Positions 3,721 through 23,861 of a stretch of 50,010 nt of DNA are shown in pieces. The position numbers and the translations under genes are program-made. The first letter of the stretch is position 1; the number at the start of each line of letters is the position of its first letter. The DNA lies in NCBI GenBank assembly GCA_018054125.1, contig JAGPKD010000004.1, positions 1 to 50,010 of the forward strand, read 5' to 3'. A model generated the notes under the pieces. The model was not told where the DNA came from and searched no databases. It saw only the letters and a program-made list of their open reading frames with translations. The DNA comes from Candidatus Oleihabitans oleiphilus. GTDB taxonomy: Bacteria > Atribacterota > Phoenicimicrobiia > Phoenicimicrobiales > Stramentimicrobiaceae.

Positions 3721-4842
3721 TTATTTCTTTTTCTTGCCAATATTTAAAAATTGCTCCATAATCATTACCAATTCTTTACTTTCTTCCCCCTTAATATTTA
3801 TTACTGGCAAAGATATTCTGCTTCTCATTTTCTGACAAAGTTGCACCACATCTATCCAATCTGCTTCATAACTCTCTTTCCCATAGCGATGAAATTTTGG
3901 ATAAAAGGGATTAACGGTAACTGCTAACACTGGTAAGCTATGGAGTGTCTTAAGTTTGATTCCTTTTCTTATCATATCAGCAAGAAGATCTTTAAGATGG
4001 CAAATATCTTGGGAACCGACTAACAAAAAGGTGGGATTATCAATCAGAATTGTTTTCCCTCGGAATAATTCACTATATTTTTCCACCATCTCTTTTAATA
4101 GCTTATCCTGAATAATTCCTGGTATATATATTTCTGCCGATTCTTTTTCATCGATATTGTTAATTAAATTATGAAGTGTTTTTTGACTAATCAGGGAATG
4201 ATCATTTAATTGTCTTATAACACCATTTTTCTGAAAAATTACCATATTGTGTTGAGGTCTTCTTATTTCTTGGTTAGAAATCTTTTGTTTTTCTCTCAAA
4301 GGTAAATTGTACACTCTTAATATACTTTCGGTCTCCTCCACAAGTAAATCAACATCAATATGACGAGAGGCTCCAGTGGTTAAAATCAATGCATCGCAAT
4401 GCACTAATGGTATCATCCTATTCAAAGCTCCATCAACCAATATTATTTGAACTCTCTGTTGTTTTATTTTTTGAATAATATATTTTAAGTCTTTGCTCTT
4501 ATTGGGACCGGCTAAAACCACTAAACCTTCTTGCAAGGTATTCTCTATTAATACTGGTCCTAAAGGAGTAAGAATGGGCGTTTTTTCAATTGTTTCTAAT
4601 TTTGCTGCTGTGGAAGATAAGCATTGTTCTGCAGTAGCAATGATATTGCCTTTCTGAATAAAAATGCGTGGTTTGGGTAATCCAGTAATATTGTCTATAT
4701 CTTCTCCATCATAGCCAATGCTGGTTAGCCCTACCCCAATATTTTCCTTATTGGCCCATTCCAGTAAAAAATTAAAAGTGGTAGTTTTTCCAGTATTTTT
4801 AGCTGTTCCTAATATTCCAATTATCTTACTACTAATTGGCAT
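3721..4842 (-). CDS. P-loop NTPase, possible aminomutase reactivation partner (KamB-like)
   Basis: This 373-residue cytosolic protein has no signal peptide. A Walker A loop GTAKNTGKT lies at residues 12-20. The segment VQIILVDGALNRMIPLVHCDALILTTGASRH looks like a Walker B/switch region of the SIMIBI P-loop class. The C-terminal third (about residues 230-373) has no motif I recognise. It is the last gene of the cluster, 13 bases after the aminomutase gene. Adenosylcobalamin aminomutases inactivate during turnover and are rescued by ATP-using partners, and KamB/KamC is the pair for lysine 5,6-aminomutase. The P-loop assignment is seen in the sequence. The reactivase role rests on position and a general resemblance to KamB that I cannot test here. 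No MutS-like KamC partner is present in the window. Confidence 0.6.
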   Translation of the reverse strand: MPISSKIIGILGTAKNTGKTTTFNFLLEWANKENIGVGLTSIGYDGEDIDNITGLPKPRIFIQKGNIIATAEQCLSSTAAKLETIEKTPILTPLGPVLIENTLQEGLVVLAGPNKSKDLKYIIQKIKQQRVQIILVDGALNRMIPLVHCDALILTTGASRHIDVDLLVEETESILRVYNLPLREKQKISNQEIRRPQHNMVIFQKNGVIRQLNDHSLISQKTLHNLINNIDEKESAEIYIPGIIQDKLLKEMVEKYSELFRGKTILIDNPTFLLVGSQDICHLKDLLADMIRKGIKLKTLHSLPVLAVTVNPFYPKFHRYGKESYEADWIDVVQLCQKMRSRISLPVINIKGEESKELVMIMEQFLNIGKKKK

Positions 4843-4855
4843 AGGCTATTTCCGC

Positions 4856-6706
4856 TTATCTTTCCATGATGGTATTTCTTCCAGCAAGACCAGGGTAAGC
4901 CCCATCCTCAGGTCCACCTAATAACCCCTCGTATAGTGAATTAACAAAACTACCTCTTCTGGCAACTTTTTCTAAAGTTGTTTCAATTCCTTGTTTTATT
5001 TCTTGTTCATATTCTTTGGCTTTAGCTGTCGGTTTTATCTCTGCCTTTCCTAAGAAACGAAATACTTCTTGAATTGCTCTTAAAGTATCAATCCTGGAAG
5101 AAATAGAAATCGGACCTCTGGAATAGGCCTCATCAGCAGAGGCTATGGTAATTGCATCAACCTTAAGGGAAATAGCCAGAGCGGCATGTAAAGCAGTAGT
5201 TAATGAAGATTGGACTCTATCTTCAGAATGAGTCATAAAACCAATCGGTTCTCCAGGCCAGATGGGAGCATCAATAATGGAACGCAAACTATTGATTTTA
5301 GCCACATTATAATCAATATAGTTATCATCCATCTTACCAGTAATCATAACATCAGGTGAATAACAAAATAAAGGTTTTAATATTGGTTGTGCCTGTAATT
5401 TTAAAGCTAAATCAGCAATAATCAGCAAACCAGCGAATGATTTATAGGCTGGCACCCCTCCCAATTCCTCATTAGTTGGCTCATCAAAGGGCATCTTATA
5501 TTTGGCCGCATATTTTATGGTTTCTATACCATCAATAGTTAACCTCGCCGGATCAGTGCCTCCATTCAATGCTCCATAAACTATATGAATTTTTGTTAAA
5601 TCTGCACCTAATTCACCAGCCAGAACCGCTGTCTCAGGTGTATTTAATCCCCGATGTGCCCGGACGGTCCAGAGAGTTTCTTGATGAAGGGAAGATTTTA
5701 TCTTTGCTAAATTTTCCCAGGTAATAATGGAGCCATCTTCTTCATGAGATAATATTCCTTCCAGAAAGCCCTCAGTGCGAGCACCCCAGGAGGGATCAAA
5801 ATGAAATACTCCATCTGCTCCCCAGGCTTCACTTGTTTTAATATGAGCAATATCCATGATTGGGCAGCCAGTGCCATATTGAACAAAGACAAGTGGTAAA
5901 GACTGAGAATGCCTTAACTTTTTAAAATTGATATTTTCCTTTTCTTTTTGAATATAGACATCAAGCCTAGATATTTCTTCTGGAGACAGGGCTCTTACTT
6001 TATTAGGAAGCTTACCGTCTTGATAAAACTGTAAAATTTTCTCATCACAGTAGTTAAGGTAATTCCCCATTAAAAGCTTAATCTTATTAGATTTATCTTG
6101 CTGAGTTAGATTGCTATCCTTATTGATACCAATCATTCTTTCTCGTAGTTTTGCCCTTTCAATAGCTGGACTGGTCTTGTTACTACTCCACTGGATAATC
6201 TCTTCAGTAATTTCATTTAACAGTTTTTTTATTTTATCGTTTTTATATTGATAAGTATACTGGGCAGGGATAGAGACTTTTTTTCTAAATAATTTTCCCT
6301 TTTCTTGTAGGTATTCTCTATCTTCAAGATAAGCTATAATTTCTTCAAAATCCGTTCCTGCTCCAAATCCCTTATCAAATCCTAATTCAGCTGCTAATTG
6401 TGGGGTAATTGCTTTTCCTCCTAACACTATTTTGGCTTTATCTCTAATCTTAGCGGCATCTAACATATCAATAAATTTGCCCAACAATTCTGCCACACCA
6501 TACCCTAAGGTTCTACTAACCAAGAGGTAATTTACATCAATTTCAGAGGCACGACTGATAATTTCTTCTAAAGGTAAATCAGGAGGCAATAAGATAGTCT
6601 GATGCCCTCTATCTTTTAACTTTCGATTTAAAATCTTCAAGGCAACGTCATGAACTGGATCCAGTGGAATCAATAAAACTCTTTTCTTATCTCTAATCTC
6701 ATTCAT
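4856..6706 (-). CDS. Adenosylcobalamin-dependent amino acid aminomutase: B12 domain fused to TIM barrel
   Basis: This 616-residue protein is related to D-ornithine 4,5- and lysine 5,6-aminomutases, which move a terminal amino group to the next carbon using adenosylcobalamin and PLP. Residues 8-125 are a B12-binding Rossmann domain: PVHDVALKIL carries the cobalt-ligand histidine H19, then LLVSRTLG and IVLGGKAITPQLAAELGFDKGFGAG. A helical linker (about 150-260) leads to a TIM barrel (about 265-616) with GADGVFHFDPSWGARTEGF, TVRAHRGLNTPE, MTHSEDRVQSSLTTALHAAL and a C-terminal YEGLLGGPEDGAYPG, which align in order with KamD. The domain order is the reverse of OraE, where the barrel comes first. 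The PLP lysine found 11 residues after the histidine in KamE (K144) and OraE (K629) is a leucine here (L30), flanked by K29 and K31. The substrate is unknown. Confidence 0.85.
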   Translation of the reverse strand: MNEIRDKKRVLLIPLDPVHDVALKILNRKLKDRGHQTILLPPDLPLEEIISRASEIDVNYLLVSRTLGYGVAELLGKFIDMLDAAKIRDKAKIVLGGKAITPQLAAELGFDKGFGAGTDFEEIIAYLEDREYLQEKGKLFRKKVSIPAQYTYQYKNDKIKKLLNEITEEIIQWSSNKTSPAIERAKLRERMIGINKDSNLTQQDKSNKIKLLMGNYLNYCDEKILQFYQDGKLPNKVRALSPEEISRLDVYIQKEKENINFKKLRHSQSLPLVFVQYGTGCPIMDIAHIKTSEAWGADGVFHFDPSWGARTEGFLEGILSHEEDGSIITWENLAKIKSSLHQETLWTVRAHRGLNTPETAVLAGELGADLTKIHIVYGALNGGTDPARLTIDGIETIKYAAKYKMPFDEPTNEELGGVPAYKSFAGLLIIADLALKLQAQPILKPLFCYSPDVMITGKMDDNYIDYNVAKINSLRSIIDAPIWPGEPIGFMTHSEDRVQSSLTTALHAALAISLKVDAITIASADEAYSRGPISISSRIDTLRAIQEVFRFLGKAEIKPTAKAKEYEQEIKQGIETTLEKVARRGSFVNSLYEGLLGGPEDGAYPGLAGRNTIMER

Positions 6707-6729: not shown

Positions 6730-6984
6730 TTATTCCTTATTATTTTTATATAAATCCAACCATCCATAGGAATCACCAGGTTTGTAAATGTTGGCTCGCA
6801 GCCTGATCCGAGCACCAGAGCCTAAAAACTCAATAAAAACCACATCAACATCTTTGAACCCCAAATTTTTCATCATTGCCAACCCTAATTTCTTCCCCTC
6901 TTCCTCACTTTTACAAGCAATAAAGGTCTCAACATCCAGTGAATCTAAGATATAATCTAAAAAGTCGGCATGCTCAATCATCAT
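6730..6984 (-). CDS. Small aminomutase subunit, OraE/KamE-type dimerisation domain
   Basis: This 84-residue protein contains GKKLGLAMMKNLGFKDVDVVFIEFLGSGARIRLRANI, which resembles the small alpha/beta domain of OraE and KamE that precedes their B12 Rossmann domain (EFAKKMNLEEVEV...EGTRIELKGRV in OraE). In those enzymes it is part of the B12 chain; here it is a separate gene directly before the B12/TIM-barrel gene, 23 bases away. Its start codon overlaps the end of the upstream BFD-type gene by 11 bases, behind a GGAGG site, so the two are probably translationally coupled. The family call rests on pattern similarity over a short protein and needs a profile comparison. Confidence 0.65.
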   Translation of the reverse strand: MMIEHADFLDYILDSLDVETFIACKSEEEGKKLGLAMMKNLGFKDVDVVFIEFLGSGARIRLRANIYKPGDSYGWLDLYKNNKE

Positions 6985-7246
6985 TCCCTCCTGCTATTAC
7001 CCTTAAGGGAACAGGTTTGGTAGGAGGACGAAAGGTAGAAAGAGGTATCTCCTCTACTTTCTTATGGAGATAGGAAGCGATAGCCTGTAAGAGAATTCTC
7101 TGGCAGGTCTTCCCCTGGCAGGGACCCATACCAGCCCGGGTAAGACGTTTGATCTCATCTAAGGTAGTGTAACCCTTGTCTAATTGTTTTCTTATCTCTC
7201 CCCAGGTAATATCCTCACAACGACAGATAATGGTATCATCATCCAT
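6974..7246 (-). CDS. BFD-type [2Fe-2S] subunit of amino-acid dehydrogenase
   Basis: This 90-residue protein reads IICRCEDITWGEIRKQL then GMGPCQGKTCQ. Cysteines C8, C10, C43 and C48 form the C-x-C...C-x4-C pattern of a bacterioferredoxin-associated-ferredoxin domain with one [2Fe-2S] cluster. In HcnB, OoxA and the alpha subunits of dye-linked proline dehydrogenases this domain is the C-terminus of the FAD protein; here it is a separate gene. Its start overlaps the ferredoxin gene by 8 bases and its end overlaps the small aminomutase gene. It probably passes electrons between the FAD protein and the other Fe-S centres. Confidence 0.85.
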   Translation of the reverse strand: MDDDTIICRCEDITWGEIRKQLDKGYTTLDEIKRLTRAGMGPCQGKTCQRILLQAIASYLHKKVEEIPLSTFRPPTKPVPLRVIAGGNDD

Positions 7247-7736
7247 TTTTATACTCCTCCACCTTGATATTACGGATCAAAAGAGCCAACTCTTTGGGCA
7301 CCAGGATACTTATGATAGAAGTCTTATTTTTGGTGCTCTGCACCCTGCTCACCTTCACCTGAGCTACTCGGTTACCTTCTCGGTCTAAGCCTGAGACCAG
7401 CTCACCTTTCCTGGGTAGGGGTAACAGTTCATAGGGTAATTTAACTAAGGCCTCTTTCTGAGAGTAGTTGCTATCTACTACAAAGATAGCCAGTCCAGGA
7501 CAGGAGGCAATACAGAGACCACAACCGGTGCATTTAGCATAATCCACCTTGGGTAGCTCATTGATATCGGTAAAGGGTAAAATTGCTCCCGAAGGACAGG
7601 AAAGAGCACAGGGGTCACAGGGGATATGTTGAAAACATTCTATCACCACCACAGGTTTCTGTTGCAATAGCTCTTTGGGGGGTATTACTCTTTCTAATTC
7701 TGCTTTAGTAGGGACACCATCAGTGGATAGGGACAT
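7239..7736 (-). CDS. Ferredoxin-type 2x[4Fe-4S] subunit of amino-acid dehydrogenase
   Basis: This 165-residue protein carries two clusters: C34, C40, C43, C47 (CFQHIPCDPCALSCP) and C69, C72, C75, C79 (CTGCGLCIASCP). The C-terminal 70 residues are a small beta-rich extension without cysteines. Comparable ferredoxin subunits occur in the alpha-beta-gamma-delta dye-linked proline dehydrogenases of Thermococcales. The gene overlaps the FAD-subunit gene by 17 bases and the BFD gene by 8, so the subunits are likely made in step. It likely carries electrons from amino-acid oxidation to a soluble or membrane acceptor; the acceptor is not evident. Confidence 0.85.
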   Translation of the reverse strand: MSLSTDGVPTKAELERVIPPKELLQQKPVVVIECFQHIPCDPCALSCPSGAILPFTDINELPKVDYAKCTGCGLCIASCPGLAIFVVDSNYSQKEALVKLPYELLPLPRKGELVSGLDREGNRVAQVKVSRVQSTKNKTSIISILVPKELALLIRNIKVEEYKNG

Positions 7737-8841
7737 CTCTTCCTCCTCTAGTCAGAGTAGCCTTTTTTAGGCCAGTGCGGATCTTTTCACTGGCCGGATT
7801 ATTACGTAATTGAAACAGTTGTTGTTGGTAGTTGGCCTTGAGCTCTTGGTAGTGGGGGTGAGAAAGGCCTAAACTGGCTGCGGCATTTAAACCAGCTAGC
7901 TGCCCTTCGAGCAGGGCACTGCTGGCCTCCTCAATACCAGCCACATCACCAGCAAGGTAGATCTGGTCTAAGGAGGTCTTCAGGTTCTCATCTCGAAGAG
8001 CGACATAACCACCCAATTCTGGAATATAGGCCATCTGACAGCCGGCCTGCCAGAGTAGTTCTGATAAGGGTGACAAACCCACCGCCAGACAGACGGTATC
8101 TACTTTTAGTTCTTTTTCACTATCAGGGATAAAGTTAAAGTTCTGATCGAGCTTGGCAATGGTTACACTTTCCACCTGCTCTTTTCCTCTTACCTCCTTT
8201 AGGGTAGAGGAGGTATAGATGGGTACCCCCATTCTCCTTATCTTACTGGCATGCACCCAGTAACCACCAATATGAGGTAAGGCCTCTACGATAGCCTCTA
8301 CCTGGATAGCGGCCTGTAACAGCTGATAGGAGACAATCAGACCGATATTACCAGCACCAACCATCAGAACCTCCTGACCAGGGATAACTCCATAGACATT
8401 GAGTAAGGTCTGCACTGCCCCTGCTCCATAAACACCAGGCAGGTCATTATTAAGGAAGGGGAGCATATTCTCAGCAGCACCGGTAGCCACAATAATTCGT
8501 CTGGGTTTTACCTTCAGCCATCTCTTGCCATGATAACCTTCCAAGATAGTGATAATTCCATCCTCATAATAGCCAGTAACAGTAGATTGGATTAATACCT
8601 CAATATGGGGGAATTGGCTAAGCTCGGTAATTAAATTACGGGCAATATCAATACCCCTTACCCCGGCAAATTGACTGGCAGAACCAAAGAATTTATGGGT
8701 CTGCTTGATGAGTTGTCCGCCTAACTGGAGGCCATCATCAACCAGTAGGATACTAAGCTCGGGAGAACAGGAGGCAGCAGAAAGGGCAGCAGCCAGACCG
8801 GCTGGTCCACCACCTATTATGGCCAGATCATACTCTTTCAC
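7720..8841 (-). CDS. FAD/NAD(P)-binding alpha subunit of amino-acid dehydrogenase (HcnB/proline-dehydrogenase-alpha type)
   Basis: This 373-residue flavoprotein has an N-terminal dinucleotide fold (YDLAIIGGGPAGLAAALSAA), a second GxGxxG in EVLMVGAGNIGLIVSYQLL, and an ATG-like ATGAAENMLPF before a late FAD contact (IYLAGDVAGIEEASSALLEGQLAG). This is the pyridine-nucleotide-disulphide-type architecture of HcnB, OoxA and the alpha subunit of multi-subunit proline dehydrogenases. Those proteins run to about 460-490 residues because they end in a BFD domain; here that domain is split off into the 90-residue gene, with the ferredoxin gene inserted between them. The codons are clearly more GC-rich than those of the flanking genes. 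Confidence 0.85.
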   Translation of the reverse strand: MKEYDLAIIGGGPAGLAAALSAASCSPELSILLVDDGLQLGGQLIKQTHKFFGSASQFAGVRGIDIARNLITELSQFPHIEVLIQSTVTGYYEDGIITILEGYHGKRWLKVKPRRIIVATGAAENMLPFLNNDLPGVYGAGAVQTLLNVYGVIPGQEVLMVGAGNIGLIVSYQLLQAAIQVEAIVEALPHIGGYWVHASKIRRMGVPIYTSSTLKEVRGKEQVESVTIAKLDQNFNFIPDSEKELKVDTVCLAVGLSPLSELLWQAGCQMAYIPELGGYVALRDENLKTSLDQIYLAGDVAGIEEASSALLEGQLAGLNAAASLGLSHPHYQELKANYQQQLFQLRNNPASEKIRTGLKKATLTRGGRDVPIH

Positions 8842-8842
8842 T

Positions 8843-9163
8843 CTAACACCCCTTCTCCTGTTGTCTTTCTACTACCATACCCTCTTCTAATCTGGTGATA
8901 CAGGTTCTGACATTGGCTATCCCATTAACCCTCATCAGACAGGAAGAACAGTTACCAATGGCACAAAAGAAGCCACGAGGGCGCTTCAATCTTCTACTGT
9001 AGCTTAATACCTTGATGCCGGAGGCCACTAAGGCAGCAGCAATGGGTTCATTATCATAACCCGCCATCTGTTGCCCTTCAAAGGTGAAGGTAACCTTCTT
9101 GCCATGTTGAAATTGTAAGATGGGATGTTTTTGTACTCTCATTAAAAAATCCTTACTTATCAT
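8843..9163 (-). CDS. [2Fe-2S] ferredoxin-like small subunit (HcnA/SoxA N-terminal type)
   Basis: This 106-residue protein contains CAIGNCSSCLMRVNGIANVRTC, with C67, C72, C75 and C88 as the plant-type [2Fe-2S] ligands, and AGYDNEPIAAALVASGIKVL, the usual lead-in of HcnA, OoxA gamma and the N-terminus of sarcosine oxidase alpha. It ends one base before the FAD subunit starts. The longest frame starts at 9163 with no good ribosome site. The ATG at 9142 has TAAGGA seven bases upstream and gives a protein starting MRVQKHPILQF, which may be the real start. Confidence 0.85.
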   Translation of the reverse strand: MISKDFLMRVQKHPILQFQHGKKVTFTFEGQQMAGYDNEPIAAALVASGIKVLSYSRRLKRPRGFFCAIGNCSSCLMRVNGIANVRTCITRLEEGMVVERQQEKGC

Positions 9164-9166
9164 ATT

Positions 9167-10318
9167 TTACTTAAATCTTGATAATCTAAAAGGATACAAA
9201 GGTATACTAGTTTTGCCATTTATTACTAATTCAGCGATTAATCTACCAGTTATAGGCGAAAGGGCAATTCCATCGCCTTCATGTCCGGCTGCCATAATAA
9301 ATCCTTCCAAACCTTCTACTTTACCTAAAATTGGTAGACCATCTTCCGTATAAGGTCTAAGCCCAGCAAAAAACCTAATAATAGATACATTTCTGAAAGC
9401 TGGTAATAAAGACACCAGATTTCTGGCAATACTTTCTATACCATCGTAACTCACTTTTTTATTGAAACCTACAAACTCTCTAGTAGCTCCAATCAAATAA
9501 TTATCATTTGCAGTTGGCTCTATGGTTAGACCACCACCATTGTTATTAGCAATTTCAGGGTCATATTTGCAAGCAATATAGTTTGAAGTGCAAAGCACAC
9601 CTTTTATAATATTAGGGATTGTCTCTGTTACCATAAGTTGACCCCTTCGAGGTTTAATAGGAATATTTAAATTGACCATGGCGCCAATCTCTGGCGCATA
9701 AATTCCTGCTGCATTAATAACTATATTTGTTTTAATATTCCCTCTATTGGTAATAACTTCCTCAACAGTTCTATTTTTTCTCTTGATTCCTAAAACTTTG
9801 GTATAGGTAAATACTTTTGCATTATTATATCTAGTTGCTGCTTCTATAAATCCATAGGTAAGTAAAATAGGGTTAACCCGGGCATCAGCAGAGCAAAAAG
9901 TAGAGCCTGCTACAGTTTCCGATAAAGCAGGTTGTTGCTCTCGCGCTTCATCTGAATTTAAAAGTTTTACCTCTAATCCAGTTTTATTTTGCTCTTGAAC
10001 AAACTTTTCCATAGCATTATATTGGTTTTGTTCTGGTATTACCACCATAGCACCATCAGCAACATATTCTATTTTATAATCAAGTTCATCTTCCAAGGTT
10101 TTAAACAGGTCAGCACTTTGCATTGCCATCTTAAGATGGATTCCTGGTTTTTTAGTTTGCAGAAATATGAGGCCTTCACAAGCGCTGGAAGTGCCGCTAG
10201 CAATGGAACTCTTTTCTAATAAAACTACCTCAACTTTTTCCTTAGCAATTTGATAAAATATTGAAGCACCTATTACTCCCCCACCTATAATCACTACGTC
10301 TGCTTTTTGAACCACCAT
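9167..10318 (-). CDS. FAD-dependent amino acid dehydrogenase, DAO family (catalytic beta subunit)
   Basis: This 383-residue flavoprotein of the D-amino acid oxidase/glycine oxidase/sarcosine oxidase family starts with ADVVIIGGGVIGASIFYQIA and ends with LRPYTEDGLPILGKVEGLEGFIMAAGHEGDGIALSPITGRLIAELV, the typical C-terminal FAD and substrate-pocket region. Together with the four Fe-S and FAD genes downstream it matches the beta subunit of dye-linked proline dehydrogenases and octopine or nopaline oxidases, which oxidise a secondary or primary alpha-amine to an imine. It does not transfer electrons to oxygen in such complexes. Substrate chirality cannot be read from sequence. A D-amino acid would agree with the neighbouring racemase and the DauR-like regulator. 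Confidence 0.85.
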   Translation of the reverse strand: MVVQKADVVIIGGGVIGASIFYQIAKEKVEVVLLEKSSIASGTSSACEGLIFLQTKKPGIHLKMAMQSADLFKTLEDELDYKIEYVADGAMVVIPEQNQYNAMEKFVQEQNKTGLEVKLLNSDEAREQQPALSETVAGSTFCSADARVNPILLTYGFIEAATRYNNAKVFTYTKVLGIKRKNRTVEEVITNRGNIKTNIVINAAGIYAPEIGAMVNLNIPIKPRRGQLMVTETIPNIIKGVLCTSNYIACKYDPEIANNNGGGLTIEPTANDNYLIGATREFVGFNKKVSYDGIESIARNLVSLLPAFRNVSIIRFFAGLRPYTEDGLPILGKVEGLEGFIMAAGHEGDGIALSPITGRLIAELVINGKTSIPLYPFRLSRFK

Positions 10319-10358: not shown

Positions 10359-11078
10359 TTAATTAAAGGAACTTTTAACTAATCCAGAATAAAACCATTG
10401 CATTAAAGTATATATATCAAATACCGGTAAGTTCGAAATTTTTTGAATATCATAGGCATAAGGAGACATATTGGTACATTCCAGCACAATAGCTCCAATA
10501 TCTTCATTGAAATTTATCATATTTTTTACTGTTTCTATGATCTCATTTCTTATTCTTTCTTTATTTATAAAACCTGATTGGTTCTGTATAAATATTTTCT
10601 GAAAATATTCTCTATTTTCCATTCCCATTATAATCAAGGGACTGTTTTGGATACCGGCACCATAAAGATGTTCTTCTGTTAAAGATTTAGAGTTAGCAGT
10701 TATAACACCTATTCTCTTCTTTTTATTTAATATTTGATATATCATGGGTATCTGTAATAAGCTGGAAGTAAAAACAGGAACATTAACACTATTACTAATA
10801 TCTTTTTGATACTTTGCCATAAATCCACAAGTCGTAGTAATAGCATCAACTCCTTTTTCTTCTAAATATCTCGCTGCTTTTATAGCAGATATTAATACTC
10901 CATAATCGTCATGGTTTACTATGTTTTCAGGATAGATTCCCTCTATCACCTGGTAAACAACGGGAAAATTCCAGGTCTTGGGATTGCCTATGTCCCCTAA
11001 TAAACGTTGAAACTTGGTATCTAACTTAATAATGCCAATATATGGTTGGTTATCTTTTTTTTGGTAACAGTCAAACAT
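10359..11078 (-). CDS. Aspartate/glutamate/hydantoin racemase family protein
   Basis: This 239-residue protein carries the two catalytic cysteines of the Asp/Glu racemase fold, C84 in AITTTCGFMAKYQ and C201 in AIVLECTNMSPYAYDI. The family uses a two-base thiol mechanism without PLP to invert an alpha-carbon. Its first codon overlaps the stop of the TRAP permease gene (TAATG), so it is probably translationally coupled to uptake. A role in inverting the imported substrate before the aminomutase or dehydrogenase is inferred. It is not the PLP-type ornithine racemase Orr. Confidence 0.8.
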   Translation of the reverse strand: MFDCYQKKDNQPYIGIIKLDTKFQRLLGDIGNPKTWNFPVVYQVIEGIYPENIVNHDDYGVLISAIKAARYLEEKGVDAITTTCGFMAKYQKDISNSVNVPVFTSSLLQIPMIYQILNKKKRIGVITANSKSLTEEHLYGAGIQNSPLIIMGMENREYFQKIFIQNQSGFINKERIRNEIIETVKNMINFNEDIGAIVLECTNMSPYAYDIQKISNLPVFDIYTLMQWFYSGLVKSSFN

Positions 11079-13027
11079 TATTGTTTAGGTCCTATTTGAT
11101 TACTTTGACTATCTTTAATATTTTTTTCTAATATCATGTTTTTTTGCTTTTTCCCCAAGGGGAACTTTTTCAAAGCCCAGGACATTAAAACAGCAATAAG
11201 TAGAACTCCAGCTAAAATCGTATCATAAAAAGAAGGTACAATATTAATCAATATTAAAAAAGTACCTATCAATATTACCACAATCCGCTGCCAGTATTTA
11301 AGATGATGGTTTAGAAAATAATTAGTTAAACCAGCAGCTAAAAAATAAGTGGCAAATAATAACAATATAAACACGGTAGATATCTCTATAAAAGTTCCTC
11401 GCATTAGTAATGCATCATTATAAATAAAAATGTAAGGAATAATAAACCCAACTAAAGCTAATTTAAAAGCCTCATAGCCTGTTTTTAGTGGATCTGAACC
11501 AGCAATAGCTGCTCCGCAATAGGCGGCAATACATACTGGTGGTGTTATCTCAGCAAGAATCGCAAAATAAAAAACAAATAAATGGGAAGCTAATAAATCA
11601 CAACCCATAGCTGCCAATGCCGGTCCGCCAATAGTAATAGCAATAATATAGGCAGGAGTGCAAGGCAGACCCATCCCTAAAACTAATGAAGTAATCATAA
11701 TCAGTAATAAAGCCAGAAATAGATATCCCCTAGACCAATTAGTAATTACCGCCGCTATACCTAAACCCAAACCAGTATGAGTTACAATAGAGACCACCAT
11801 CCCTGCTCCAGCACATGCCAGAGCAATCATAATCATATTACTTCCCCCTAATCTTAAAGTATCCCACAATCTTCTGGGAGTCATCATCGTGTCTTTTTTA
11901 AAAAAACTAATAGTAAAAGATATCAATATAGCAATAGATGCTGCCATAAATGGAGAATAACCGGTCAACAACATATAAATTAATCCAACCAAAGGAATCA
12001 ATAGATATAAATCCCGCATTAAATTTTTTAAAGGTAAAATCTCATCTTTACTTAAACCACTTAAATTGTCTCTTAACGCAATAAAATGAACTCTCATAGC
12101 AATACTTACATAATATAAGATTGCTCCTAAAACAGCCGCAATAATTATCTTTACATAAGGAATTCCAGTAATTTCTGCCATTACAAATGCCCCAGCGCCC
12201 ATAATAGGTGGCATTAATATTCCACCAGTAGATGCAGCTGCCTCAACCGCGCCAGCAAATTGACTTTGATAACCCATCTTTTTCATTAGAGGAATAGTAA
12301 AAGTACCAGTAGCATATACATTAGCAGCTGCTACTCCACTAACAGAACCGAATAGAGCGCTGCCAATTACTGCTATTTGGGCTGGTCCCCCTGGTCTTGT
12401 TCCAGCAATTGCAGACGCAGCATTGGTAAAAAATTCACCAGTGCGAGTAGTTTCCATAAAAGCGCCAAAAATAACAAAAAGAGCTACAAAGGTAGCCGAT
12501 ACTCCTGTTATTGAACCATAGATTCCTTCCTCTGTAAATAAATATTGCATTTCGACAATTTTAGATAAAGGTATTTGCTTATTGAAAAAAACTCCGCTAA
12601 GATATGGGGCAATAAACAAATAAATAAAAAACACTCCAATAAGGATAGACATAGCAGGAACTACTGCTCTACGAATTGCCTCTAACAATAAAATAATATT
12701 TAATAGTCCCAGAACTAATTCAATAGTTAATACTGGATCTATAAATTGTAATCGGTAAGTCAGTCTCTCATCAGAAATCATAAGAAATAAAGGGGGTAAA
12801 ATAGCCAAAAAAGCAAATAGACCATCAAAAAATGTTATACGATCTTTAGGGGATTTTGAAGTCGCTGGAAAAAGAATAAAGGCTATTGGTAACAAAAACA
12901 ATAAATGAACTCCTCTTTGAAAACGAGGCTGCATAATTCCAAAAAAGGCAGTGTATAAGTGAAAAATAGAAATTGCAACTAACCATGCTTCAATGAAATA
13001 ATTTTGCCATCCCTTAAATTTTCTCAT
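11078..13027 (-). CDS. TRAP transporter fused permease, TAXI type (DctQM)
   Basis: This 649-residue integral membrane protein has about 16 or more hydrophobic helices. The N-terminal group (about residues 10-150) corresponds to the small DctQ subunit and the rest to DctM, with GSVSGVAAANVYATGTFTIPLM, MPPIMGAGAFVMAEITGIPY and LVLGMGLPCTPAYIIAI typical of TAXI-type fused permeases. The transporter uses a cation gradient rather than ATP. It lies behind the matching binding-protein gene with a hairpin between them. The C-terminal 100 residues are extra helices and a charged tail. The substrate is likely an amino acid or carboxylate but is not determined. Confidence 0.93.
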   Translation of the reverse strand: MRKFKGWQNYFIEAWLVAISIFHLYTAFFGIMQPRFQRGVHLLFLLPIAFILFPATSKSPKDRITFFDGLFAFLAILPPLFLMISDERLTYRLQFIDPVLTIELVLGLLNIILLLEAIRRAVVPAMSILIGVFFIYLFIAPYLSGVFFNKQIPLSKIVEMQYLFTEEGIYGSITGVSATFVALFVIFGAFMETTRTGEFFTNAASAIAGTRPGGPAQIAVIGSALFGSVSGVAAANVYATGTFTIPLMKKMGYQSQFAGAVEAAASTGGILMPPIMGAGAFVMAEITGIPYVKIIIAAVLGAILYYVSIAMRVHFIALRDNLSGLSKDEILPLKNLMRDLYLLIPLVGLIYMLLTGYSPFMAASIAILISFTISFFKKDTMMTPRRLWDTLRLGGSNMIMIALACAGAGMVVSIVTHTGLGLGIAAVITNWSRGYLFLALLLIMITSLVLGMGLPCTPAYIIAITIGGPALAAMGCDLLASHLFVFYFAILAEITPPVCIAAYCGAAIAGSDPLKTGYEAFKLALVGFIIPYIFIYNDALLMRGTFIEISTVFILLLFATYFLAAGLTNYFLNHHLKYWQRIVVILIGTFLILINIVPSFYDTILAGVLLIAVLMSWALKKFPLGKKQKNMILEKNIKDSQSNQIGPKQ

Positions 13028-13075
13028 TTTTGTCCTTACCTTCTTCCTTCTTATAATTTACTACAAATGATTTAT

Positions 13076-13118
13076 AATACATGGCTTTCAATTCAAAAAT
13101 TAATGAAAGCCATGTATT
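13076..13118 (-). promoter_or_regulatory. Intercistronic hairpin between TAXI binding protein and permease genes
   Basis: The arms AATACATGGCTTTCA (13076-13090) and TGAAAGCCATGTATT (13104-13118) pair perfectly over 15 bases with a 13-base loop. No T-run follows, so it is unlikely to be a full terminator. Such hairpins often protect the 3' end of binding-protein mRNA and so give more binding protein than permease. Confidence 0.7.
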
Positions 13119-13162
13119 GTAATTGTCTATCATATAATCAGTAATCAACAGTTAATTACTTC

Positions 13163-14203
13163 TTACTCCATATACCCTGCTTCTTTGTAATACTTCTCAG
13201 CACCTGGGTGCAATGGAACTCCCACATTTTTCCAGCCATCTTCAGGTATAAAATACCTATTTGTTCTATCAATTTGATATACCTGTTCAATATTTTCATC
13301 AAAAATCTTTAAAATAGTATAAACCACTTCATCCGATACATCTTTGTTAACCAATAATTCTCCAGCAGTTACCACAACAGGAACATCTTTTTCTTGACCT
13401 TTATAAGTATTAGCAGGAATTACACACAAGCCCGATTCTCTGGCAATCGTTCCTAACTCTTCATGACAATAATCTATTAATTCTTCTGAAGCAGCCAGTA
13501 TAATTGAATCTCTTCCTACTGTCATCTCTGTAACAGCAGCTGCCGGAATAGATAGATGGGTAGCGACAAAATCTACATGATGATCCTGGTATAAACTAAC
13601 CATATCTGCATAAACAGCATGAAATACTTTGCCTCCTGCTTTTTCAACATCATCCAAGGAAACACCATAAAAATTGAAAATCTCTTCAACAATCGGTAAA
13701 TCTGATGTCCCTTTCATGGGAGCAGCTATTTTAATAGCCTTTCCATCTTTAACCATTTGCATTAATTCTTTAATTGTTTCAATTCCCTGATTTTTTGCTG
13801 CCACAAAATGAATATTATAGATCCCAAATATTGCTCCAATAGCACGAACATCAGGATAAGGCTCTTCATACAAGGGAGCTTGGCCATCAAAAGCTGCCTT
13901 ATCTACAAAAGTAATTCCCCATCCCAAGTCATCTTCACCAGTAGAAACTCTAACCGGATTAACTAAACCGCCACCAGGAACAACCTTTATGGTAATTTTG
14001 GGTTCATTCTCGTTGATCAGTTGCGCTAAACCGCCTGCTTGGGTATACCAACCACCACCTACACCACCAGCAACCCAGGTCAGCGTGATTGGACTTAGCT
14101 CCAGTTCTGATTGATCTGCTGAAACAGTTAAACTAACACCAAAAATAATCACTAACATGATTAGAAAAAATGTAGATATTTTTTTTGAAAAATTACCTCT
14201 CAT
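13163..14203 (-). CDS. TAXI-family TRAP transporter solute-binding protein
   Basis: This 346-residue secreted protein has a signal peptide: a basic start MRGNFSKK, the hydrophobic core ISTFFLIMLVIIFGVSLTV, and a likely cut near SADQ. The mature part opens with LTWVAGGVGGGWYTQAGGLAQLI, the glycine-rich hallmark of TAXI proteins, followed by VRVSTGEDDLGWGITF and FVATHLSIPAAAVTEM. It binds the substrate outside the membrane and hands it to the fused permease encoded next. TAXI proteins have been linked to glutamate, oxoglutarate and related acids. AAGGAGG lies eight bases before the ATG, and a second orphan AAAGGAGGTG lies further upstream. Confidence 0.92.
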   Translation of the reverse strand: MRGNFSKKISTFFLIMLVIIFGVSLTVSADQSELELSPITLTWVAGGVGGGWYTQAGGLAQLINENEPKITIKVVPGGGLVNPVRVSTGEDDLGWGITFVDKAAFDGQAPLYEEPYPDVRAIGAIFGIYNIHFVAAKNQGIETIKELMQMVKDGKAIKIAAPMKGTSDLPIVEEIFNFYGVSLDDVEKAGGKVFHAVYADMVSLYQDHHVDFVATHLSIPAAAVTEMTVGRDSIILAASEELIDYCHEELGTIARESGLCVIPANTYKGQEKDVPVVVTAGELLVNKDVSDEVVYTILKIFDENIEQVYQIDRTNRYFIPEDGWKNVGVPLHPGAEKYYKEAGYME

Positions 14204-14335: not shown

Positions 14336-15799
14336 TTATATAACACCTGCATACTTACAGGTTATCTCAATCAGCCTTACCATTGCCTGAATTGCCCAGC
14401 GGGCTCTTTCTTCAATGAGATTACCATCATTATCGGTTGTTCCCAATCCAGGAGAAACAAAGATATTGCCATCATAGGCAATAGTAGCAATAATTCCCAT
14501 TTGCGCAGTTCCTGATTGGAAGATATTGGTTCCGGAATACATATCTTCAATAGAAAAAATAGGAATTCCCAAACCACTCTTTTGCCAGCTTTTTTCATAA
14601 TTGATCTCTATGGCACCAGAATTATATGATTTGGTAATCATAAAGTCATCTCTGATCTTTTCATTAATTTTAGCAAATTCTTCTTTGGTAATCTGGTAAA
14701 GTTGATCCACTGGTTCTTTTAATCTTTCCGGGTGATCTCTTAATACTTTCAGGGAGGCAATCACACCTACTAAAGCCTCTTTGCCCGGGTCAACCGTGAC
14801 ATAGGCCGCCTTACCATGGGAAGTTCCAGTTCCCCAGCGGTCTCCGTGGACCCCCAGGGCTCTTCTGATATCTACTAAGAGTGCTTCTTTGCCAATAATC
14901 AAACCAGCGGTGACACAGTAGGAAGCCTTATCCATACTGTAACACATAATATCAGCATTATTTTTTCTGATATCAATACCCACAAAAGGGACCCCCCAGG
15001 CATTATCTACAATATAGGGTACATCATAATCCTGAGCCAGTTTGCCAATTAATTTTTGTAAAGCAGGTGTTCCCTCTTCATCTTTTACTCCATAACCATA
15101 ACCAGGTGTATCATATCCTAAAGAAGTAAAGGCAGCCAAGGTATCAGCATGGCGTTCAGCTATTTTCTCAAATACTTTAATCGATGCCTCAGGATCTACC
15201 TTACTTAACTGAACACAGGGGTGGTATTTTATACCATGACAATCATAATTAGCTCCTTCCAGAGGTACAATAATACAATCCAGATTATTCTGTCTTTTCC
15301 CATAAAATCCTAATTCTCCTGGAGTTGTCCCCCGATCAGCAAATAAATCTTTGTATTTTCCCGGGAAAGGCCGTCCATAGCCTCCATGGTGGTGTAAATG
15401 CTTTTCATAAGGAACAATATACCGGGAACGATAATTATCACCTCTTCCCTGCATGGGTGGGGTGGCCAGGACATCAAAAGCAACCCATAAGGCACCTTCA
15501 CAGGTATTTATAGCTACTCCATCGTAATCATCACCATAGACATCCTTTACAATCTCTCTAATTTCTTCATCCAGGACACTATTGGGAATAATCTTCTCAC
15601 CATACTCGGTTTCTGCTTCCCTAACCTCTTTAAAAGGTATGCCATGACAACCAGAGATAGCCCCCGTTAAACCAAATTTTCCTCGCAAATCTTGTGGTAT
15701 TCCTATGTCGTCAGCTACTTTTCTTGCTTCAGCATAAATGTTGGGGATACTCTTTTGTAAATGCCGATACATTTGAAATTTATATTTAAAATCTGTCAT
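14336..15799 (-). CDS. Uncharacterised fold-type-I PLP-dependent enzyme
   Basis: This 487-residue cytosolic protein has the layout of a fold-type-I PLP enzyme: D265 in VPYIVDNAWGVPF (pyridine-nitrogen aspartate) and K291 in MCYSMDKASYCVTAG (Schiff-base lysine) lie 26 residues apart, as usual. The N-terminal third is distinctive: LTGAISGCHGIPFKEVREAE, AINTCEGALWVAFDVL, and a histidine-rich EKHLHHHGGYGRPFPG. I do not recognise a characterised family; decarboxylases, SelA-like lyases and aminotransferases share this fold. It lies between the lyase and the binding-protein gene, so it should act on the pathway's amino acid or an intermediate. It is not OrtB, which belongs to a different PLP fold. 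Confidence 0.8.
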   Translation of the reverse strand: MTDFKYKFQMYRHLQKSIPNIYAEARKVADDIGIPQDLRGKFGLTGAISGCHGIPFKEVREAETEYGEKIIPNSVLDEEIREIVKDVYGDDYDGVAINTCEGALWVAFDVLATPPMQGRGDNYRSRYIVPYEKHLHHHGGYGRPFPGKYKDLFADRGTTPGELGFYGKRQNNLDCIIVPLEGANYDCHGIKYHPCVQLSKVDPEASIKVFEKIAERHADTLAAFTSLGYDTPGYGYGVKDEEGTPALQKLIGKLAQDYDVPYIVDNAWGVPFVGIDIRKNNADIMCYSMDKASYCVTAGLIIGKEALLVDIRRALGVHGDRWGTGTSHGKAAYVTVDPGKEALVGVIASLKVLRDHPERLKEPVDQLYQITKEEFAKINEKIRDDFMITKSYNSGAIEINYEKSWQKSGLGIPIFSIEDMYSGTNIFQSGTAQMGIIATIAYDGNIFVSPGLGTTDNDGNLIEERARWAIQAMVRLIEITCKYAGVI

Positions 15800-15847
15800 T
15801 ACCTCTTTCTCCTTTCCTTAATTAAAATTTATTTTTATTCTTAAAAA

Positions 15848-16753
15848 TTAAATTCTATATTTTTTGATTACACCAAGCTCTTCCATTATCTCTTCTAATT
15901 GTTTCATTTTTTCAGCACTGAGAGGTCGTAGCGGAAGTCTTGGATTGCCTCCCGGAAGTCCCAGTATATTCATTCCCGCCTTAATTACTACTGGATTAGT
16001 AACTGAATAACAAATTTCCATTAAAGGGAAAAATTTGAATACTAATTCTCGAGAATTTATCATATCTTCATATTTTTGCCAGGGACGTGATAATTGAGCA
16101 AATTCCTCTGGAATTAAATTACCAGTAATATTAGTTGTTCCTGAACCACCAATCGCTAAATTAGGTAAAATAATAGAATAAGGTGGTGCATCACAAGTTA
16201 AAATATCAATTTTTCTATCCATACCTATCTGTACTTTAATAAGTTGACTCACATCAGGCATAGCCTCTTTTAAAGCAACAATATTTTTTATACTAGATAT
16301 TTTGATAGCTGTTTCTGGCTTTATATTTACACCTACTCTAGTAGGGTTATTATAAACAGCGATGGGAATATCAACCTGATTGGCTACTGTTTTTATAAAA
16401 TTATAAAGGTCATCCTGGGGTGGCTTAATATAAGCAGGCATTACCATTAAAGCACCATCTGCTCCAACCAACTGTGCATATTTAGTCATTTCAATAGTAT
16501 CCTGAGTATTGGAACCAGTTGTTCCTACCAAAACAGGTATCTTACCACGAGTGTATTCCACTACATATTTTATAACCTGTTTCTTCTCTTCTTTAGATAG
16601 CATGGAAGATTCGCCAGCTGAACCTAATACTAATAAACCGTCAGTCTCATAGTGATGTTGAAAATCAATAATTGGTTTAAACTTTTCCAGATCAATTTCC
16701 CCATCTTCTCGAAAAGGAGTAGGAATTGCTACCCATGAACCAATAATTCTCAT
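15848..16753 (-). CDS. DapA/N-acetylneuraminate lyase superfamily aldolase or deaminase (catabolic paralogue)
   Basis: This 301-residue TIM-barrel protein has the class I aldolase lysine K162 (NIVALKEAMPD) and tyrosine Y134 (IAVYNNPTRVGVN). The loop that reads GTTGES in true dihydrodipicolinate synthases is GSAGES here (residues 44-49), so a hydroxyl of the proton relay is missing. A genuine DapA is encoded separately at 19495-20379, which makes lysine synthesis an unlikely job. Family members cleave 2-keto-3-deoxy acids or deaminate hydroxypyrroline carboxylates. Here it probably acts on a 2-keto product of the dehydrogenase, but the reaction is not identifiable. Confidence 0.85.
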   Translation of the reverse strand: MRIIGSWVAIPTPFREDGEIDLEKFKPIIDFQHHYETDGLLVLGSAGESSMLSKEEKKQVIKYVVEYTRGKIPVLVGTTGSNTQDTIEMTKYAQLVGADGALMVMPAYIKPPQDDLYNFIKTVANQVDIPIAVYNNPTRVGVNIKPETAIKISSIKNIVALKEAMPDVSQLIKVQIGMDRKIDILTCDAPPYSIILPNLAIGGSGTTNITGNLIPEEFAQLSRPWQKYEDMINSRELVFKFFPLMEICYSVTNPVVIKAGMNILGLPGGNPRLPLRPLSAEKMKQLEEIMEELGVIKKYRI

Positions 16754-16754
16754 A

Positions 16755-17195
16755 TTAATTATTTCCTTTCTGGGCTTGAATAATAATAGGATCCTCTATA
16801 TTAATATGAAGATCTTTCCCAGTCACTCTTTTTGTTGAATAAAGAACAATATTTTGATGATTGGGCATATGGGTATCATCAAAACCAGCTACAATACCCA
16901 ATAAATTATTATTCCAGTAAACTTCATCACCAACTACTATTACCCCTCCTTGAGATATTTCGATAAAAGCAATATAAGAAACCTGATTAACTACTGACCC
17001 CGGTTTGGCTTCCTTTTCATCAGTTACTATAAGTTCATGAATCTCATTTTTCTTTACAGCTCTTGAGATAGGTTTAATCAAGTTAAGTTCCCTTCCTTCC
17101 ATCACTAACTGCAAAACTGCTACCACTGAGGATTGTATTTTTCTTTTAGAGCTATAAGTATTTTTGGTGACTAACCCGCTGGCATGAGGATCCAT
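16755..17195 (-). CDS. Unrecognised 146-residue protein of the catabolic cluster
   Basis: I do not recognise this protein. It is soluble, has no cysteines or signal peptide, and appears beta-rich: VSYIAFIEISQGGVIVVGDEVYW followed by LGIVAGFDDTHMPNHQNIVLYS. The first 20 residues are polar. The central segment could be a small SH3-like or ligand-binding barrel, but no catalytic pattern stands out. It ends one base before the DapA-like gene starts, and the RidA gene lies 71 bases upstream of it. The tight spacing marks it as part of the pathway, perhaps an accessory or binding subunit. Confidence 0.75.
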   Translation of the reverse strand: MDPHASGLVTKNTYSSKRKIQSSVVAVLQLVMEGRELNLIKPISRAVKKNEIHELIVTDEKEAKPGSVVNQVSYIAFIEISQGGVIVVGDEVYWNNNLLGIVAGFDDTHMPNHQNIVLYSTKRVTGKDLHINIEDPIIIQAQKGNN

Positions 17196-17266: not shown

Positions 17267-17659
17267 TTAATCACCATAGGCAATGGCTTCCATTTCCACT
17301 TTAGCACCCTTCGGTAAATTGGTAACCTCGACACAGGCACGGGCCGGTAGAGTCGTATTGAAATATTCTGAATATACTTCATTTACCCTATCAAAATCTT
17401 TCATATTGGTAATAAAAATGGTTACCTTTAAAACCTTTTGTAATGAACTTTCGGCACTTTCTAAAATAGCCTTGAGATTTTCAATTACCTGTTTAGTTTG
17501 AATAGTAATATCACCATTTATCAAGGTATTACTATCTGGATTAATGGCAATTTGTCCCGAGACAAAAATCAGGTTATTAAATTTAATTGCCTGGGAATAA
17601 GGACCAATGGCGACTGGAGCAGCTTTGGTATTGATAATCTTTTTGATAATTGGAAACAC
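17267..17659 (-). CDS. ridA: RidA family enamine/imine deaminase
   Basis: This 130-residue protein has the full Rid signature: AAPVAIGPYSQAIKFNNLIFVSGQIAINP near the start and the arginine-bearing LPARACVEVTNLPKGAKVEMEAIAY near the end. RidA trimers hydrolyse reactive enamine and imine products released by PLP enzymes and amino-acid dehydrogenases, giving keto acids and ammonia. The place in a cluster with a DAO-type dehydrogenase and a PLP enzyme fits that role exactly. It lies about 20 bases after the regulator gene. Confidence 0.92.
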   Translation of the reverse strand: MFPIIKKIINTKAAPVAIGPYSQAIKFNNLIFVSGQIAINPDSNTLINGDITIQTKQVIENLKAILESAESSLQKVLKVTIFITNMKDFDRVNEVYSEYFNTTLPARACVEVTNLPKGAKVEMEAIAYGD

Positions 17660-17678: not shown

Positions 17679-18374
17679 TTAAAGTATTTTCCCGCTACTA
17701 TCATTTTCAGATTTTATTTCAGCCAGATAATTATAAATGGTAAAACGGGAAACATTTAACTTATCTGCCAATCGATCAATGGCATCCTTAACCAGGAAAA
17801 TCCCATGTTTCTGCAAATAGCGAACCATCTCTATTTTGTCTTCTTTTGGCATTTTATTAATTTCTTTCCCTATTTTTTGTTGAGCTTTGAAAAACAATCG
17901 CTCCATTAATTCATCCAGGGAATCTGAAAAGGATTCTTCTCTTTCTTCCTTAAGGATATTTTCTATATTATTCAAGTTATTGGTAACATTACAAAATTCA
18001 TCTATTTCTCGGGAAATATTCATAAGTGGCTCTAGATTAAAGTTAAGGCATAAAAAGCCTACTATTTTCTTATTTTCATCACGAATAAAAATTGTAGTTG
18101 ATTTTAATTTCTTTCCATCCTTACTCTCTGTGCGATAATTAGCAACATAGTCAGTATCATGAAACAAATCGGAGGTTAAAAAATATAAGCCCAGGTCGGT
18201 CATGGGAGCTCCAACTTTTCGGCCAGTTATATGACCGTTTTCAATTAAGATTATAGAATGTTCCAGGTCACTTACATCATGCAATACTACTTCGCAATTT
18301 CTGCCAAAACCTCGAGCAATACCTTTAGCTAGGGGAATATAATTTTTTAATAGTGGATTCATTTTATTTACCAT
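17679..18374 (-). CDS. YheO/DauR-type transcriptional regulator (PAS-like domain plus HTH)
   Basis: This 231-residue protein has an N-terminal YheO-like PAS domain (residues 5-115: NYIPLAKGIARGFGRNCEVVLHDVSDLEHSIILIENGHITGRKVGAP) and a C-terminal helix-turn-helix (DAIDRLADKLNVSRFTIYNYLAEIK, about 197-221). A charged helix with NLNNIENILKEEREES links them. DauR of Pseudomonas, from this family, represses D-arginine catabolic genes. As first gene of the cluster it probably controls its own operon in response to the substrate or an intermediate. Two palindromes in its leader are candidate operators. Confidence 0.88.
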   Translation of the reverse strand: MVNKMNPLLKNYIPLAKGIARGFGRNCEVVLHDVSDLEHSIILIENGHITGRKVGAPMTDLGLYFLTSDLFHDTDYVANYRTESKDGKKLKSTTIFIRDENKKIVGFLCLNFNLEPLMNISREIDEFCNVTNNLNNIENILKEEREESFSDSLDELMERLFFKAQQKIGKEINKMPKEDKIEMVRYLQKHGIFLVKDAIDRLADKLNVSRFTIYNYLAEIKSENDSSGKIL

Positions 18375-19491: not shown

Positions 19492-19494
19492 GTT

Positions 19495-20379: not shown

Positions 20380-20410
20380 ACTTAAAACCTCCTTAATATA
20401 AAATATAAAA

Positions 20411-21706: not shown

Positions 21707-21763
21707 CTCTTTCTACTTTCACCTGAGTTTAAATTACTTATTAATTACTACTAACTTTAATAA

Positions 21764-22936: not shown

Positions 22937-22956
22937 AATATTTTTATCCTTTCTAT

Positions 22957-23820: not shown

Positions 23821-23861
23821 ACTTACCTCCTATTTTTTCTAACGGTACTTTTCTCCTTAGT

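Follow-up and report, generated by a model that had tools for sequence, protein, structure and literature searches.

A putative PLP enzyme of the SelA/DgaE branch forms a module with DUF6917 and a B12-binding TIM-barrel protein

What does a PLP enzyme do that reaches no curated family model, and with which proteins does it work? The question is raised by a gene in a 50,010-nucleotide stretch of DNA from Candidatus Oleihabitans oleiphilus (the window; contig JAGPKD010000004.1), which the initial annotation had described as a PLP enzyme of no recognised family and a probable key step. The reported reading frame is real: the 487-residue frame is open throughout 14336–15799 on the minus strand, and the plus-strand reading of the same interval contains 16 stops. 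The quoted motifs are present (GCHGIPFKE at residues 50–58, AINTCEGALW at 96–105 and HLHHHGGYGRPF at 134–145), as are D265 and K291. A scan of one-per-species genomes using peptide patterns from the window protein identified relatives encoded at 146 loci, of which the best 80, with 58–88% identity, were retained as L002–L081; the scan is pattern-based, and the other 66 loci and distant kin without the patterns lie outside this sample. The residues C100, E101, H134, H136, H137, R143, D265, D290, K291 and R321 are identical in all 81 aligned sequences, and because of this invariance and the relatives at 146 loci the frame is not a chance one. GCHG is a local variant found in 7 of the 81 sequences, with GCP at the same place in 68. 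The host assembly (G000; 1.67 Mb in 181 contigs) holds a single copy. The two nearest relatives are from Candidatus Atribacteria, and in a tree of the 81 sequences the window protein pairs with L002 (88%), adjoined by L003 and L004 and then by L005.

Table 1. Features of the PLP enzyme gene and of the surrounding operon in the window.
Feature	Coordinates	Strand	Evidence
Predicted SelA/DgaE-like fold-type-I PLP enzyme, 487 aa	14336..15799	-	ORF call, profiles, model, alignment
K291, expected Schiff-base lysine in SMDK	14927..14929	-	81-sequence alignment
D265, expected pyridine-nitrogen partner	15005..15007	-	81-sequence and family alignment
Residues 131-170, conserved segment	15290..15409	-	Conservation, model confidence, DgaE gaps
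Histidine loop, residues 134-145	15365..15400	-	81 sequences; low-confidence DgaE and threonine aldolase alignments
KamB-like reactivase	3721..4842	-	NF052386, 261.7 bits (cut-off 210)
B12_TIM: N-terminal B12-binding domain and lysine 5,6-aminomutase-type TIM barrel	4856..6706	-	
84-aa protein	6730..6984	-	Relative in 55/80 loci
Small Cys-rich protein	6974..7246	-	
4Fe-4S subunit	7239..7736	-	
FAD/NAD subunit like sarcosine oxidase alpha	7720..8841	-	
2Fe-2S subunit like sarcosine oxidase alpha N-terminus	8843..9163	-	
DAO-family FAD dehydrogenase subunit, ThiO-like, under ThiO model cut-off	9167..10318	-	Pfam, NCBIfam
Asp/Glu racemase-family protein (PRK07475 group)	10359..11078	-	Pfam, NCBIfam
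Fused TRAP permease	11078..13027	-	Pfam, NCBIfam
TAXI-type TRAP solute-binding protein	13163..14203	-	Pfam, NCBIfam
DHDPS/NAL-family aldolase, between DUF6917 and PLP gene	15848..16753	-	Pfam, NCBIfam
DUF6917 protein (PF21891)	16755..17195	-	Pfam, 159.1 bits
RidA-family enamine/imine deaminase	17267..17659	-	Pfam, NCBIfam
YheO-type PAS/HTH regulator	17679..18374	-	Pfam

The claim of "no recognised family" holds in that no curated cut-off is reached, but it is too strong, given profile kinship to DgaE and SelA. The window protein has no Pfam match at E ≤ 0.01 and matches Aminotran_5 only at E ≤ 0.05 (E = 0.018, under the cut-off); NCBIfam models gave it 16–24 bits, and none of their cut-offs (301–813) was reached. 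A strong match to a characterised PLP family, which the initial annotation had named as the result that would tell against it, was not found at the curated cut-offs of Pfam and NCBIfam. When 56 members of the family were searched against Pfam at E ≤ 0.05, Aminotran_5 matched 44, SelA 29 and Cys_Met_Meta_PP 24, and six more families matched at most seven members each. The NCBIfam model TIGR01437 (selA_rel/DgaE) matched 56/56 members at E ≤ 0.001 (best 1.9e-14), followed by the DgaE equivalog with 36/56; NF041088, an archaeal alanine/glutamate racemase model, matched 14/56. The TIGR01437 score of the window protein was 21.4 bits against a cut-off of 385.3. Seven of eight other members scored 25.6–43.1 bits with this model and one had no match at E ≤ 1e-5, and the G014 copy scored 50.0 bits, under the same cut-off.

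Comparison of profiles with hhalign gave a score of 85.5 for the family against DgaE (maximum of 100 column shuffles 24.6, reversed 16.7), 74.5 against SelA-like sequences (maximum of 100 column shuffles 27.4, reversed 18.7) and 35.4 against threonine aldolase. The inputs were taken from carrier genomes and comprised three DgaE sequences above the TIGR01437 cut-off, nine threonine aldolases of PF01212 and 14 SelA-like sequences, the latter named from length, SGDK/SADK and score without a SelA model. Membership in the SelA/DgaE branch is seen at this looser profile level, with threonine aldolase as the single other fold-type-I family compared; the confident stretch of the match covers residues 251–386, and the N-terminal pairing is of low confidence. 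DgaE (D-glucosaminate-6-phosphate ammonia-lyase; PDB 7lc0) resembles the PLP enzyme in fold type I, in the surroundings of the Schiff base and in a common GKE...G.I.AL motif, and a search with the family profile picks up its structure (E 0.00038). However, the PLP enzyme has longer ends and extra residues 147–150 and 153–177, which face gaps in DgaE in the hhalign alignment. SelA, the bacterial selenocysteine synthase, has S.DK at the Schiff base in common with the PLP enzyme (SMDK here, SGDK or SADK in 14/14 SelA-like sequences), but no SelA model cut-off is reached, and separate SelA-like genes of 461–518 aa coexist with the PLP enzyme in several carrier genomes. Among 199 Bacillota genomes, the weakest full-length PLP enzyme scored 741.8 bits and the next protein 29.5, and because of this gap the enzyme is a discrete family. 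Its profiles fit best with a new family within the SelA/DgaE branch of the fold-type-I enzymes.

An AlphaFold model built from 56 sequences (pLDDT 88.5, pTM 0.90) agreed with the earlier assignment to fold type I, and the best 50 PDB matches in each program are fold-type-I proteins by title. The fold search that had been proposed as a check did not pick out a single family. The first ranks in Foldseek include SepCysS, SufS and SelA, and in VIA-align threonine aldolase, AEP transaminase, SHMT and NifS tie at Z about 22, with Z 21.1–22.3 over the best 50 matches. DgaE and SelA are absent among the 50 VIA-align matches listed, which is uninformative on either family. Threonine aldolase is like the PLP enzyme in fold, with paired His loops in a low-confidence alignment, but differs in the low profile score given above. 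By sequence, the best PDB match was 3if2 (E 0.0012 over 58 residues), and around the lysine the enzyme weakly resembles valine-pyruvate and class-V aminotransferases. With the Asp partner and the Schiff-base Lys in place, the model supports a fold-type-I PLP enzyme that is predicted to bind PLP.

The N-terminal third had been called unusual, and its histidine-rich loop had been suggested to bind a metal or a carboxylate. The order of the core strands is usual. The histidine loop, which comes after the strand at residues 125–130 of the model, is however succeeded by a conserved segment peculiar to this family. Within the loop, H138 is replaced by Q in 54/81 sequences and the other histidines and R143 do not vary. 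In the alignment with DgaE, which is of low confidence here, YGRP lies opposite FGAP and H137 opposite a His of DgaE; in that with threonine aldolase, likewise of low confidence, H134 lies opposite a His that stacks on PLP in that family. These alignments tentatively assign the loop to the PLP site and disagree on the stacking His. A metal site is less likely, given this placement of the loop in both alignments, and the proposed metal or carboxylate binding found no support. Over residues 131–170, 18/40 columns are invariant vs 101/487 over the whole enzyme. Block means of model confidence are 87 and 84 for residues 131–150 and 52 and 54 for 151–170, the minimum of the chain, and despite these low values 9/23 columns are invariant at residues 148–170. 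Judged from the model, segment 151–170 might resemble a stretch that is ordered by a partner protein.

We examined 199 Bacillota genomes centred on carrier G008, including other genomes that supplied loci, for full-length PLP enzyme, B12_TIM at E ≤ 1e-50 and DUF6917 above its cut-off. PLP-enzyme matches at E ≤ 0.001 occurred in 70 genomes and full-length ones in 18. B12_TIM was present in 17/199 and DUF6917 in the same 17, all within the 18 genomes with full-length PLP enzyme; the chance of such overlaps by random draws is <1e-22 if kinship among the genomes is disregarded. The one genome that deviates, G086, carries a divergent PLP enzyme without B12_TIM and DUF6917. G033 and G116 each carry two copies of all three genes, and G070 carries two PLP enzymes, one B12_TIM and one DUF6917. 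The PLP enzyme, DUF6917 and B12_TIM form a module whose co-occurrence is near-perfect, and "key step" holds in this sense only, the PLP enzyme being a near-constant companion of the B12 protein and DUF6917. Using a B12_TIM profile partly built from their own sequences, we detected full-length B12_TIM in 25 of 27 PLP-bearing genomes; in G025 it is broken, and G003 lacks it except for a B12-domain match. In Sporomusa ovata G025 (L054), B12_TIM lies in two pieces with stop codons and the PLP frame is open. Carriers of the PLP enzyme and B12_TIM include Bacillota, Atribacterota, Ignavibacteriota, Thermotogota and others.

Neighbouring genes were counted by protein cluster at 80 loci, many of them ended by contig edges, with cluster names taken from one to four scanned members each. 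DUF6917 was found in 72 loci, B12_TIM in 61, the 84-aa protein in 55, a GidA-like FAD protein in 47, a KamB-like protein in 45, a Rid-family protein in 43 (four members verified by Pfam), an FCD regulator in 38 and a permease, from a cluster without match, in 26. DUF6917 lies directly upstream of the PLP gene (within 1.2 kb) in 68/73 same-strand placements. A DAO protein occurs in 3/80 loci and a DAP-dehydrogenase-like protein in 7/80 (member in L065: TIGR01921, 297.9 bits, cut-off 180.6), the latter never together with the GidA-like FAD protein and never with Rid. Its gene stands immediately before DUF6917 in L058, L065, L070, L071, L074, L079 and L081, which are Ignavibacteriota and related MAGs. 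The YheO-type regulator of the window recurs at six loci (L002, L003, L005, L048, L051 and L067), and the combination of TAXI-TRAP transporter, racemase-family protein and DAO-type dehydrogenase complex is shared by the window, L003, L048 and L051. Small genes of one cluster follow the PLP gene in L004 and the transporter genes in L005, where the copy is a DUF1805 protein.

The genes of the window operon are listed in Table 1; its small Cys-rich protein is presumably BFD-like, as judged by eye. The 84-aa protein matches nothing in Pfam at E ≤ 0.05 or in NCBIfam at E ≤ 0.01 and has no similarity to OraS, for which it had been considered, and DUF6917 has no PDB sequence match at E ≤ 1. The NCBIfam equivalog "lysine 5,6-aminomutase reactivase KamB" exceeds its cut-off at 3721–4842. 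This name seems to over-reach, as the host assembly (87.7% complete) yielded neither a lysine nor an ornithine aminomutase at the thresholds used. The aldolase gene is absent at the corresponding place in L003. A DNA comparison with L003 over 14336–16753 showed flanks mostly 92–100% identical, most of the PLP gene at 72–81% and its two ends at 88–90%; this dip and the missing aldolase suggest a local recombination event accompanied by the insertion of a gene. A second dip (77–93%) at 11250–13250 falls mainly within the TRAP permease. Upstream on the same strand, at 18691–25217, are lysine-biosynthesis-like genes (by eye dapB, dapA, lysC, an aminotransferase, dapF and lysA) that are 94–100% identical in L003.

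The B12 partner was modelled from 54 sequences (616 aa; pLDDT 90.8, pTM 0.85) and has the TIM-barrel fold of lysine 5,6-aminomutase, with the alpha subunit of that enzyme at Z 33.4 (383 aligned, rmsd 3.7) and, lower, glutamate mutase at Z 27.4 and ornithine aminomutase at Z 26.5. The profile PF09043 does not match the window B12_TIM and matches 3/54 family members at E ≤ 0.01 (best 1.2e-4). Hhalign scores were 61.4 for KamD and 95.6 for OraE, the latter over the B12 domain (maxima of 50 shuffles 25.8 and 26.3), and a 37-residue stretch weakly resembles OraS (score 31.8, P 0.001, from a single pair without shuffle control). Lysine 5,6- and ornithine 4,5-aminomutase share with B12_TIM the TIM barrel, a related B12 domain and a KamB-like reactivase, but in B12_TIM the KamE/OraE-like B12 domain (E 3.6e-18 and 1.7e-13) is N-terminal within a single chain, and the PLP site differs. 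PMC3958899 lists Lys144, Arg184, Ser189, Tyr236, Ser238, Tyr263, Arg268 and Asn299 as PLP contacts of lysine 5,6-aminomutase, along with main-chain amides. An hhalign mapping of these contacts, which came out the same at each of three settings, gave D304, a gap, A350, R352, Y377, G382 and E413 for B12_TIM, so that one of eight contacts is kept. As controls, 7/7 KamD sequences retain R(T/S)T.QS, NY.SG and YG...R, and 5/5 OraE sequences retain RT(T/A)GQS, SY.SG, YN..YR and the PLP lysine 11 residues past the cobalt His. B12_TIM lacks the RT.GQS-type phosphate motif, and at none of the positions H19+10 to +12 is a Lys conserved in its 58 sequences, K24 standing at +5 only. Because one of eight contacts is kept and the KamD and OraE controls keep their motifs, the known PLP site appears to be lost or rebuilt in B12_TIM. 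K24, K372 and K470 are invariant in 58/58 sequences, and K372 and K470 could form a new PLP site. From the fold and the reactivase, we infer that B12_TIM uses adenosylcobalamin.

On the best reading of these data, the B12 step in these anaerobic bacteria would be that of a new mutase or eliminase, and the chances seem about evenly balanced that the PLP enzyme is a lyase acting in series with it in an uncharacterised route of amino-acid degradation. The core would consist of the SelA/DgaE-like PLP enzyme, DUF6917 and B12_TIM with its KamB-like reactivase. Adenosylcobalamin radical chemistry on B12_TIM would rearrange or activate an amino-acid substrate, and the PLP enzyme would deprotonate C-alpha and then eliminate a group or cleave a bond, like SelA and DgaE. 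The enamine or imine product would be hydrolysed by Rid-family proteins; PMC9127364 and PMC4433059 describe RidA acting against PLP-derived enamines, and the adjoining Rid proteins fit such a product. DUF6917 probably serves the PLP enzyme as a subunit or partner, perhaps docking at residues 131–170, and the window operon adds TRAP uptake, the racemase-family protein and the amine dehydrogenase complex. One consistent idea is that a mutase would yield a 2,3-diamino acid (e.g. from 2,4-diaminobutyrate), from which the PLP enzyme would eliminate ammonia before Rid finishes the imine. However, the branch includes racemases, the N-terminal pairing is of low confidence, and "lyase" is a name that we infer. 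Moreover, a Rid gene is unseen in 37/80 loci, some of them ended by contig edges, Rid could instead serve flavin dehydrogenases, G086 has the PLP enzyme alone and G003 has no full-length B12_TIM.

The dehydrogenases, which vary in kind over many loci (FAD 47/80, DAO 3/80, DAP-dehydrogenase-like 7/80), would also suit a rather unlikely scheme in which the PLP enzyme cleaves a C–C bond as a thiolase, hydrolase or retro-aldolase and replaces OrtAB in an ornithine-like route, the order of B12 mutase, amine dehydrogenase and cleavage paralleling anaerobic ornithine degradation. However, DUF6917, considered by eye as an OrtA homologue, scored 19.9 in hhalign, no better than shuffled (maximum of 60 shuffles 20.4) or reversed (24.1) columns. 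Neither an OrtA-type small subunit nor an OrtB-type large subunit of the AKP thiolase is seen here, the PLP enzyme being fold type I by its model and OrtB fold type II. True OrtB is also above cut-off in 9/37 carrier genomes, and the nearest kin are DgaE and SelA. Fold type I, the weak valine-pyruvate and class-V matches and the Aminotran_5 matches are what an aminotransferase of amino-acid fermentation would show; this is improbable, as TIGR01437 matches more members more strongly and no invariant Arg occurs from column 385 on, R467 reaching 90% or more only. It is more improbable still that a racemase or epimerase prepares a D-form for the B12 step: the NF041088 matches point that way, but a racemase-family protein is already encoded elsewhere in the window operon, and the DgaE models match more members. 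PMC3958899 gives D-ornithine as the substrate of ornithine aminomutase, which would suit such a role. The single PLP contact kept in B12_TIM, against the phosphate, Ser, Tyr/Arg and Lys motifs kept in 5/5 OraE, speaks against a classical aminomutase step and would agree with a split aminomutase, having its B12 radical centre on B12_TIM and PLP on the separate PLP enzyme. The presence of the PLP enzyme in all 17 genomes with B12_TIM and the conserved segment of low model confidence would also suit this arrangement. Fold-type-I PLP sites are buried at the dimer interface, however, and sharing a substrate between such a site and a TIM barrel would be hard; G070 has two PLP genes to one B12_TIM, and the PLP lysine of B12_TIM could have moved to one of its invariant lysines. 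We consider this arrangement quite improbable.

As for the substrate, PF09043, denoting lysine or ornithine aminomutase, was found in 10/26 carrier genomes, and G024, G032 and G035 contain lysine aminomutase, ornithine aminomutase and B12_TIM together. Lysine and ornithine are poor candidates and unlikely substrates, because carriers also hold OrtB or PF09043 enzymes and these three hold both along with B12_TIM; a further substrate or reaction is therefore likely. Glutamate mutase proper occurs in 4/26 carrier genomes, so that glutamate may still be the substrate in the others.

To our knowledge, the known B12-dependent fermentations of amino acids are those that depend on glutamate mutase, lysine 5,6-aminomutase and ornithine 4,5-aminomutase. 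In titles and abstract openings of the open-licence literature we found no description of the PLP enzyme/B12_TIM/DUF6917 module, nor in that literature any mention of DUF6917, and passages on B12 fermentations in PMC8473912 make no mention of the module. The PLP enzyme family is widespread and apparently unstudied. B12_TIM represents another B12 protein family of the lysine 5,6-aminomutase fold, with a PLP enzyme of its own, and the "lysine 5,6-aminomutase reactivase KamB" annotation in the window is corrected for an assembly with no detected lysine or ornithine aminomutase. The tight co-occurrence of PLP enzyme, DUF6917 and B12_TIM makes the identity of the amino acid directly testable. There is a slim chance that the PLP enzyme, DUF6917, the 84-aa protein and B12_TIM constitute one holoenzyme of a new class, in which an adenosylcobalamin radical centre lacking a PLP of its own works on an amino acid that the separate SelA-like PLP subunit either holds or directly exchanges with it. 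If true, such a holoenzyme would carry out yet another B12-dependent fermentation of an amino acid, next to those of lysine and ornithine.
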